Source: Salinispira pacifica (GTDB taxonomy: Bacteria > Spirochaetota > Spirochaetia > DSM-27196 > Salinispiraceae). From it: a DNA stretch of 64,000 bases. The notes below the pieces were generated by a model. That model ran no database searches, was not told where the DNA came from, and saw nothing but the letters and a program-made list of their open reading frames with translations. Both the position numbers and the translations under genes were made by a program. Each line of letters begins with the position of its first letter. Within the stretch, counting starts at the first letter, position 1. Positions 53,702 to 57,244 of this stretch are shown one piece after another. The stretch spans positions 3,019,570-3,083,569 of the forward strand of contig NC_023035.1 in assembly GCF_000507245.1 (NCBI RefSeq). Reading direction: 5' to 3'.

Positions 53702-55117
53702 TTACAAGAACCCCCCGTCATCCTGGGAGTCCAGAAACCGGCTCAGCCGGGAATAGTTCATGATTACTGCATCTTTTTTCAGCTTCCGGAACAACGCTTC
53801 CCCCCGGGGGTCGTGGAAGCTTCTCACACCGCTCCACCCCGAAGCAGCGCTTCCGTGGGAAACTGTACTCCGGCGCTCCGCAAAATTTTCCGGCTTTCGG
53901 AGGGTCGGCTCCGTTTCGGGGATGTAATCATCCATAATGATCAGCCTTGATGCATGGGAGGCCAGTTCAAGATTCCTCAGATTTCCCCTTCCCACGGGAA
54001 AACTGCAAAGCACCGTGTAATCCGCTTCCCTGCAAAGGGCTTTCGCCCGGGAAAAACTTTCATCATCTATTTCGCTGAAGGGCTCAATTTCCACCAGGGG
54101 GATGTCCAGAGAGTTCCACAGCTCGGCATCGGAATCAAGTCGGTGGGCGATTCCTGCGCTGAACTGTATGCCCCTTCGAATCAGAAGCCGAGTGATATTG
54201 ATACCGCTTCCCGCTCCGCCGATGATGTGAAAGCGCTTTCTTCCCCCCTGAGGATAATTTCTCACCGGATGTACCGAGGGTGCACCGCTGCTTTTATTTC
54301 TCCCGATCATTACCCGGGTTGAATAGGCCGATTCGATATGTTCTCTGGTGAGCACCTCGGACGGCTCCCCCTGGCTGACAATCCGGCCCCTGTCCAGGAG
54401 GATCAGACGGCTGCAGTATTCCGCAGCCAGGTTGAGGTTGTGAATGGCAATCACCGCTCCCCGCCCCTCCCGGGTCAATTCTTCCACCATTTCCAGCAGG
54501 GTGTTTTCGTGTCCGATATCCAGATTTGAGGTGGGTTCATCTAGAAGCAGTACCGGGGTATTCTGCATCAACAGTCTGGCAAAGAGTACCAGCTGGCGTT
54601 CTCCTCCGGAAAGATGGTTGAAATGACGGTGGCGGATATGACGCAGTCCCACATAATCAAGAGCTTTTTCCGCAAGGGCTCTGTCGTCGTCGGAAGACCG
54701 CACACCCCGCCCGATGCCGCGGTACGATCCCATCTCCACCACTTCCAGAGCGGAAAAACTCAGATCCCCCGGGCCGTCCTGGGCAACATATGAAATACGC
54801 TCTGCCCGGCGGCGGTGGCTGAGTTCATCAAGAGAATCCCCCAGAACCCGGATGCTTCCGGAACGGCTGCTGAGAAATCCCAGCATACATTTAAGAAGAG
54901 TGCTCTTCCCCGAGCCGTTTGGACCGATGAGCCCGATTATCTCCCCACGCTGCAGATGGAACGATACCCGGGATAAAATCTGCACATCTCCGATACTGCA
55001 GTTCAGCCCCTGAACATCCAGCAGCGGCGCAGTCCCGGGTTCGCCGGATTCTGATGGGGCGCTTTTCGGGTCCAGGCGTTCCGGTTCAGTATTTCCGTTT
55101 CTTCGTTTCCGGCTCAT
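53702..55117 (-). CDS. btuD: Cobalamin ABC transporter ATPase with extra C-terminal domain
   Basis: A 471-residue ATPase. Residues about 32-275 are a FecE/BtuD-type ABC domain: Walker A GPNGSGKST, signature LSGGERQLV, Walker B LLLDEPTSNLD, and the His switch AIHNLN. Residues about 283-471 form a second domain starting with FHIIGGAGSGINITRLLI, a Gly-rich nucleotide-binding-like turn, then alternating strands and helices. Most BtuD proteins lack this part. The 4-base overlap with btuC and the upstream cobalamin riboswitch indicate a B12 role. Confidence 0.85.
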   Translation of the reverse strand: MSRKRRNGNTEPERLDPKSAPSESGEPGTAPLLDVQGLNCSIGDVQILSRVSFHLQRGEIIGLIGPNGSGKSTLLKCMLGFLSSRSGSIRVLGDSLDELSHRRRAERISYVAQDGPGDLSFSALEVVEMGSYRGIGRGVRSSDDDRALAEKALDYVGLRHIRHRHFNHLSGGERQLVLFARLLMQNTPVLLLDEPTSNLDIGHENTLLEMVEELTREGRGAVIAIHNLNLAAEYCSRLILLDRGRIVSQGEPSEVLTREHIESAYSTRVMIGRNKSSGAPSVHPVRNYPQGGRKRFHIIGGAGSGINITRLLIRRGIQFSAGIAHRLDSDAELWNSLDIPLVEIEPFSEIDDESFSRAKALCREADYTVLCSFPVGRGNLRNLELASHASRLIIMDDYIPETEPTLRKPENFAERRSTVSHGSAASGWSGVRSFHDPRGEALFRKLKKDAVIMNYSRLSRFLDSQDDGGFL

Positions 55118-56133
55118 CCTATCTGTCCTTTTCTCTGATACCGGATAATGAGGTAAATAAAATAGGGTCCCCCGATAATGGATGTGATAATTCCGGTCTT
55201 TATTTCATACGGTGGTATGAGGATTCTTCCGAGGGTGTCGGACAGGAGAAGGAAAACCGCGCCGGCGGCTGCGGAAACCGGTAAAAGCCTTCGGTTGTCC
55301 GCCCCTATGATCATCCGCATAAGGTGGGGAACCATCAGCCCCACAAACCCCACCGGACCGGCCAGGGATATGGCCATTGCGGTAAGCAGGGATGCAAGGC
55401 TGAGAATGCCCAGCTTAACCGCCTCCACCGGTACTCCCAGGCTGTGAGCCTGTTCATCGCCCAGGGCCAGAAGATTCAGGGTGCCGGATAACAGAAATAG
55501 CACGCCTCCTCCGGCTGCAATCACCGGAACAGGCCAGATAAGACGGCTGAACTGCACCCCTTCCAGCCCTCCCATGGTCCAGAACAGAAACTGACTCATT
55601 TCATATCTGTCTGAGAAAAGCAGCAGGGCGGATACCATACCGTTGAGAAAACTGGAGACTGCAAGACCCGCCAGAATGACAAACAGAAGGTGGGATCTTC
55701 CCCGGCTGGATCCGATGAGGTACACGAAAAGAGAAGCAAGCATGGCTCCGGTGAAGGCTGCGGCGGGCAGCACCGATGAATGCATCATATTCACACCCAG
55801 GGCAATTGTGAGGACTGCTCCGAAACTGCTGCCGGCGGAAATGCCCAGAATATCGGGGCTTGCCATGGGGTTACGGAACACTCCCTGGACGGCTGCTCCG
55901 CTCACCGCCAGGGCGGCGCCGGCAAGCAGGGCAGCAAGACTCCTGGGAAGACGGATGTGCCAGACAATTGCCAGATTGGAGGCTGGCAGTTCACGATCCG
56001 GCATAAACAGTTTCCCGGAAATAACTTCCAGCACCTCACCCGGAGAAAGGGACACGGCTCCCAGGGCGATGGATATTACTAAACTCAGAAGCATCATCAG
56101 TATGAGTGCAGGAAGGATTAATGTACGTTTCAT
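55114..56133 (-). CDS. btuC: Cobalamin ABC transporter permease
   Basis: A 339-residue FecCD-family permease with about 10 membrane helices. Family motifs include WHIRLPRSLAALLAGAALAVSG, GISAGSSFGAVL, and VGFVGLMVPHLMRMI (the loop that contacts the ATPase). It forms the channel with the btuD ATPase and receives cobalamin from the binding protein. The riboswitch upstream of the operon makes cobalamin rather than iron-siderophore the likely cargo. Confidence 0.9.
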   Translation of the reverse strand: MKRTLILPALILMMLLSLVISIALGAVSLSPGEVLEVISGKLFMPDRELPASNLAIVWHIRLPRSLAALLAGAALAVSGAAVQGVFRNPMASPDILGISAGSSFGAVLTIALGVNMMHSSVLPAAAFTGAMLASLFVYLIGSSRGRSHLLFVILAGLAVSSFLNGMVSALLLFSDRYEMSQFLFWTMGGLEGVQFSRLIWPVPVIAAGGGVLFLLSGTLNLLALGDEQAHSLGVPVEAVKLGILSLASLLTAMAISLAGPVGFVGLMVPHLMRMIIGADNRRLLPVSAAAGAVFLLLSDTLGRILIPPYEIKTGIITSIIGGPYFIYLIIRYQRKGQIG

Positions 56134-56197: not shown

Positions 56198-57244
56198 TTA
56201 AAACAGGCCCGGATACGCACGCTCTGCAACAAAGCGCACCGAATCGGCAATATACTGACTGTAGGTGGATTTCAGATGTTCCGGAACCATGTAGAGCCTC
56301 CGGTTTTCAACGGCGGGAACGTCCTGCAGGGAAGGATCGCTCTGCACTTCATCTTTGAAGCCCTCTGCCGCCTCCGGTTCGCCCCAGACCCATCCGGGAA
56401 GAAACAGAAGATCCGGCTGCTCCGCAATAAGAAGTTCCTTGGATACCGGTACCTGTCCGTAGTCATCGCTTCCGTATGATGCGGCGATATTGATGAGGCC
56501 CGCATGATCAAGAATGATGTTCCAGGTGGTGTCTCCGCCGCTTGCGCTTCCCCATGTGTTATAGTCCATGGTTCTGAGCTTCTCTTCCGGCTCCAGGTTT
56601 TCCAGGGCCAGAGACACATCTTCCAGAGTCCGGTTCATTTCATCCACTATCCGGCGGGCTTCCTCCGGGGCGTTCAGAATTCTGCCCAGTTTGAGGATTT
56701 CTTCCCGGATTCCATTCATGGTCACCGGAGTTTGAATGCGGTACACGGTGAGCCCGGCCTGTTCCAGCTGCTCCACCTTGGACTGGTCGCTCCAGTTGGC
56801 TACAAACACCATATCAGGATACATTTCGATGAGCAGTTCAACATTGAGGTCGATCTGGCGGGGGACCTCTTCCGCCCGGTCGGCTACATTGGAATACACC
56901 GGATCTGACGCCAGGCTGGTGATTGCCGCAAGCCGCCGGGTGGAGATGAGGTCCATCAGGACCTCATCGCTGAACAGCGTAAGACTGGCAACTGATTCCG
57001 GTTCGCTCTGGATGGTTACCTCATTATTGAGCCCGTCTTTCACGGTCAGAGGATAGCTTGTCCGAACAATCGCATCGGCTGTTTCCGGTGTTGAATCCGA
57101 TGGGGATTCGGATGGGACCGCAGACTCAGCTGCGGCGGACGGGGTTTCCGCCGTCTGTTCACCGCTTCCCGCTGCTGCCAGTGGAAACACCAACACCAGA
57201 GCCAGCAACAGGCCGGCAACAGCCCGTTTCATTGAAAAAATCAT
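56198..57244 (-). CDS. btuF: Cobalamin ABC transporter binding protein
   Basis: A 348-residue exported binding protein of the FepB/BtuF family: signal peptide (GLLLALVLVFPLAAA), a low-complexity Ser/Glu/Pro linker (about 25-60), and the substrate-binding lobes (ELLIEMYPDMVFV, LLIAEQPDLLFLPGWVWGE). It may be lipid-free or linked to the membrane; a lipobox is not clear. ATG at 57244 follows AGGAG. Expression is expected to be repressed by adenosylcobalamin through the riboswitch immediately upstream. Confidence 0.88.
   Translation of the reverse strand: MIFSMKRAVAGLLLALVLVFPLAAAGSGEQTAETPSAAAESAVPSESPSDSTPETADAIVRTSYPLTVKDGLNNEVTIQSEPESVASLTLFSDEVLMDLISTRRLAAITSLASDPVYSNVADRAEEVPRQIDLNVELLIEMYPDMVFVANWSDQSKVEQLEQAGLTVYRIQTPVTMNGIREEILKLGRILNAPEEARRIVDEMNRTLEDVSLALENLEPEEKLRTMDYNTWGSASGGDTTWNIILDHAGLINIAASYGSDDYGQVPVSKELLIAEQPDLLFLPGWVWGEPEAAEGFKDEVQSDPSLQDVPAVENRRLYMVPEHLKSTYSQYIADSVRFVAERAYPGLF

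Follow-up and report, generated by a model that had tools for sequence, protein, structure and literature searches.

The genes and the riboswitch

The stretch of DNA analysed here (the window) comprises 64,000 nucleotides of the genome of Salinispira pacifica L21-RPul-D2 and carries on its minus strand three genes in the order btuF-btuC-btuD. A cobalamin riboswitch aptamer (RF00174; 57299-57422 (-)), one of three that Rfam identifies in this genome, lies directly upstream of btuF and heads the operon, with a gathering match of 69.9 bits over model positions 47-167 which confirms the claim of an earlier sequence-only reading that this BtuD stands under cobalamin riboswitch control. The first gene encodes a btuF-type substrate-binding protein of 348 aa (56198..57244 (-)), a role assigned by gene order and family resemblance, its position and clustering being those of the substrate-binding genes of related loci. 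It is followed by the gene for a btuC-type permease of 339 aa (55114..56133 (-)), which overlaps btuD by four bases. The combination of BtuF, BtuC and cobalamin riboswitch control is that of a BtuD-type operon, and the assignment of the ATPase to a BtuCDF-type corrinoid importer, predicted from sequence, is well supported by operon and riboswitch context in many genomes.

The third gene, btuD (53702-55117, minus strand), is a single uninterrupted open reading frame of 471 aa with an ATG start, so that the extension had been correctly read as translated in one piece with BtuD. The ABC ATPase part spans residues ~32-285 (54263..55024 (-)) and is recognized by PF00005 (ABC_tran; E 4.1e-34, residues 48-197), by the NCBIfam model NF007082 (295 bits) and by heme/FecE ATPase models, the FecE/heme-type models stopping at residues ~280-284. 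Beyond the length of an ordinary BtuD there remain ~185 residues, and these form a real and separate C-terminal domain of predicted Rossmann-like structure (residues 290-471; 53705..54250 (-)), delimited by an AlphaFold2 model, by an alignment of 50 sequences and by NF007082. Its start had been placed at residues 276-280, slightly wide at the ABC end, since the folded part begins at ~290-294. The proposed size of about 190 residues holds for the amount of sequence beyond the ABC models and overstates the ordered part, which is only ~145-150 residues because residues ~403-431 constitute a ~29-residue insertion (53825..53911 (-)) that is modelled at low confidence (pLDDT <50) and corresponds to a gap in all aligned relatives. 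An origin of the extension in misassembly or read-through is ruled out by its conservation across phyla, where homologues share ~20-46% identity together with near-invariant columns.

Fold and family membership of the extension

AlphaFold2 models of the domain, both built from just two sequences (those of the window protein and of L001) because scans of viral contigs for a deeper structure alignment gave no relatives, reached a pTM of 0.70 for the window domain (mean pLDDT 70, falling below 50 only around the insertion and at the C-terminal end) and 0.76 for that of L001. The modelled order of elements is strand-helix-strand-helix-strand-helix-strand-helix-strand, then helix-strand-helix, giving the alternating sheet of a Rossmann domain with a glycine-rich loop, GGAGS, after the first strand. 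Structure comparison with Foldseek and VIA-align 2 returned nucleotide-binding Rossmann domains from dehydrogenases, reductases, formyltransferases and the RCK domain of KtrA. The KtrA match (Z 9.8, 115 aligned residues, 3.2 A, chain of 132 residues) draws attention since the KtrA chain has roughly the length of a single domain, but many other matches tie with it in Z score, and the comparison therefore supports the fold class and not a family. For the same region, formyltransferases and NAD(P) enzymes headed the structural lists with no clear winner and were not accepted as relatives. Together with weak profile matches, the models and structure matches bear out the expected Rossmann-like unit of alternating strands and helices, and a single nucleotide-binding Rossmann fold is the supported prediction for the extension.

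The extension belongs to a catalogued protein family that is, as far as we have found, uncharacterized. NF007082/PRK09536, a corrinoid ABC transporter ATPase model of 402 positions, includes the C-terminal domain, and 49 of the 50 domain homologues match it. The window BtuD has the same architecture of an ABC domain followed by this C-terminal domain: the whole protein aligns through residues 31-388 to profile positions 2-362, and the isolated domain to positions 268-364 (E 1.3e-8). At 295.1 bits the window BtuD lies below the curated cut-off of 537, which none of 14 named control genomes passes either, and it departs from the family model in its insertion and in the divergence of its C-terminal third. 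For the extension itself NF007082 names no role, and our searches of the literature turned up no paper on the domain or its function. A profile search of the extension, suggested at the outset as a check, matched no known unrelated domain in Pfam or the PDB and gave weak NAD(P)-binding Rossmann matches. The window domain has no Pfam match, and PDB searches with the single sequence and with profiles yielded nothing convincing (best E 0.005, partial). Among the 50 members, F420_oxidored (NADP-binding) is matched weakly in six (best E 1.9e-5), while PF02254 is not among the 25 Pfam families listed for them. Profile comparison with hhalign gave probabilities of 57% for F420_oxidored-type rows, a weak 41% for TrkA_N rows, 1.2% for BtuF and 0.6% for BtuC; for CbiZ the value was 0.3%, and with no Pfam match the window domain is not assigned to that family.

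Across the 50 aligned representatives, G301, G303, G322, D328, D330, N379 and N382 (window numbering) are near-invariant. The clostridial consensus reads HVIGGGG...GVLN.GDSDW..A..LGI..VE.PPFS.I...N..AD.VIL..PFG.GN..NLE...RDYTGG.A...Y, of which the window BtuD retains the glycine-rich loop, the two aspartates and the two asparagines; RSF replaces RDY, TGG is absent and the insertion falls just before this motif. The C-terminal ends of the strands are the edge at which Rossmann domains bind nucleotides. Ten of the 20 most conserved core positions lie there, in loops and helix starts, where 6.5 would be expected (p 0.06), so that over all 20 columns the conservation of this edge is only suggestive; of the 11 conserved glycine, proline and polar positions eight lie there (p 0.005), a subset that was selected once the data had been seen.

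Distribution and genomic context

Searches with the domain found relatives in 13 of 61 close genomes, scattered in nine of 296 Spirochaetota genomes, in 96 of 299 genomes of the Clostridia-containing phylum (that of a clostridial homologue), and also on haloarchaeal plasmids. Every match examined, fragments at contig ends aside, is fused to a FecE/BtuD-type ATPase. The sole candidate for a stand-alone domain (G594) proved to be a fusion with an interrupted frame in the sequence record and was rejected as such. The extension probably arose once or on a few occasions and was retained thereafter, because on the ABC-domain tree the label ‘extended’ takes three changes against 15 expected after shuffling, one of the three concerning this interrupted G594 row and the basal resolution of the tree being poor. 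Two short forms of the domain (L014 and L020; genomes G056 and G318) end soon after the conserved core, stand in operons with CbiA, CbiC and CbiD, and may represent the minimal functional unit.

Among the 40 related loci from which the domain gene was recovered, BtuF-type genes adjoin it in 31 and BtuC-type genes in 29. Rfam scans of 38 loci located a cobalamin riboswitch on the same strand ~1.8-5.5 kb upstream in 16 and elsewhere nearby in three more, with none above the gathering score in the other 19; for this purpose the domain gene of L075 was placed from the search of close genomes. Neighbouring genes include CbiZ, BtuR/CobO, CobU, CobS, CobT, CbiA, CbiC, CbiD and CobN, and one haloarchaeal plasmid carries cbiB and cobS beside btuC. 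The genome G528, probably that of Dehalobacter restrictus, has two extended copies in operons matching the operon-2 and operon-4 described for this species, operon-2 having been reported as 346-fold induced under corrinoid starvation (PMC4285132). At one locus of G528 (L100) the extended BtuD has a CbiZ gene on either side, after which come a second substrate-binding protein and CobN. The loci L092 and L083-L086 are situated amid unrelated housekeeping genes; in L083-L086, from four related genomes, the extended BtuD operon stands beside a c-di-AMP riboswitch, a LUD-domain gene and a glycine-cleavage-H-like gene, and no cobalamin riboswitch was found within reach.

The S. pacifica genome contains a second btuF-btuC-btuD operon led by a cobalamin riboswitch (L111 5987-8872; genome G000 C1 ~2204000-2207000). 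Its BtuD, of 269 aa, is an ordinary BtuD/FecE ATPase with the same role, encoded next to a riboswitch-controlled BtuF gene, and, unlike the window BtuD, lacks the C-terminal extension, which rules out that every riboswitch-led BtuD is extended and means that the extension is no general need of BtuD proteins. The operon runs on into cobamide-synthesis genes, a 923-aa gene resembling a CobD-CbiP fusion followed by CbiB-like and CbiA-like genes. Since its btuC frame is interrupted in the sequence record, the extended importer of the window may be the only intact BtuCDF of this genome. The third cobalamin riboswitch (L112 2669-2851; G000 C1:3579669-3579851) lies just before ribonucleotide reductase genes. 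No CbiZ was found in the S. pacifica genome.

Possible roles of the extension

The sequence-only reading had proposed that the domain may sense or modify a corrinoid or nucleotide and in this way couple transport to demand, which is plausible. We favour, at a probability of roughly 0.45, a cytoplasmic, ligand-sensing single Rossmann domain fused to the ATPase of a BtuCDF-type importer, which would tune transport after translation. This preference arises because the domain is permanently linked to the ATPase, is predicted to be a single Rossmann unit, carries a conserved cofactor edge and has no obvious catalytic partner domain. A small molecule would bind at the C-terminal edge of the sheet, the site of most of the conserved glycine, aspartate, proline and asparagine residues, candidate ligands being an adenine nucleotide (ATP/ADP), NAD(P)(H) or the adenosyl/nucleotide part of a corrinoid. 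Binding would alter the coming together of the two ATPase subunits, perhaps by biasing the closing of their dimer as in the analogous cases of MetN, ModC and OpuA, and so turn transport up or down. The importer would then come under rapid post-translational control as well as the slow control that the riboswitch exerts on its operon. Counting against a sensor are the second riboswitch-led BtuD of S. pacifica, which does without the domain, the lack of any structural relative that stands out, the fact that no enzyme fold is commoner than the Rossmann fold, the two-sequence basis of the models and the merely suggestive edge conservation over all top columns.

MetN, ModC and OpuA are importer ATPases with C-terminal regulatory domains of ACT-like, Mop/OB and CBS folds respectively. 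They resemble the window BtuD in having an extension after the ABC domain that is a candidate for transport feedback, but their folds differ from that predicted here and the window domain has no Pfam match to any of them. The RCK domain (TrkA_N) of the potassium-channel regulator KtrA offers a different likeness, being likewise a single Rossmann domain of about this size that is joined to a transport system of the membrane; KtrA, however, acts on channels whereas the domain of the window sits on an ABC importer, and the profile match between them is weak.

The main alternative, which we consider unlikely, is that the domain is an enzyme acting on the incoming corrinoid, for example in NAD(P)H-dependent cobalt reduction or a salvage step, with its substrate channelled from the importer. 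The fold predicted here appears to be of the NAD(P) type, the near-invariant aspartates and asparagines are as expected of an active site, and the corrinoid-processing enzymes CbiZ and the adenosyltransferase BtuR are frequent neighbours. Against this, the Rossmann domain stands alone, with the second catalytic domain usual in dehydrogenases absent, the processing enzymes are already encoded separately alongside, and the domain does not match CbiZ. Next in order, and likewise improbable, is a ligand-free structural module that stabilizes or dimerizes the ATPase. Many ABC ATPases bear C-terminal extensions that pair across the dimer, and in the window copy the RDYTGG motif no longer has its TGG and an insertion has been acquired. 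A glycine-rich loop and Asp/Asn residues common to bacteria and archaea nevertheless go beyond the needs of packing, and an ordinary BtuD, of which there is one in this very genome, functions without the domain. That many members import iron-siderophores or heme, the domain serving a role general to FecE-type importers, is very improbable: FecE, heme and BtuD ATPases are related in sequence, BtuF/BtuC-type clusters by themselves do not define cargo and 19 of the 38 loci scanned lack a cobalamin riboswitch match above the gathering score, but such a riboswitch is present in the other half, the window included, and cob/cbi genes adjoin in several lineages, the haloarchaeal plasmid with cbiB and cobS among them.

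The domain is thus real, widespread and partly catalogued, its function being undescribed in the literature that we found; it occurs in about one-third of the sampled genomes of one large phylum and yet has no Pfam entry. More tentatively than for the sensing role as such, we suggest that a Rossmann sensor shared from Clostridia and spirochaetes to haloarchaea may give direct feedback on corrinoid importers by a cytoplasmic nucleotide or adenosylated corrinoid. Accounts of how B12 uptake is controlled usually centre on the riboswitch. If the domain does sense the cytoplasmic nucleotide or corrinoid state, it would provide Clostridia, spirochaetes and archaea with a fast control point on a scarce and widely traded vitamin, and B12 homeostasis would have, below the riboswitch, a second layer that acts after translation.
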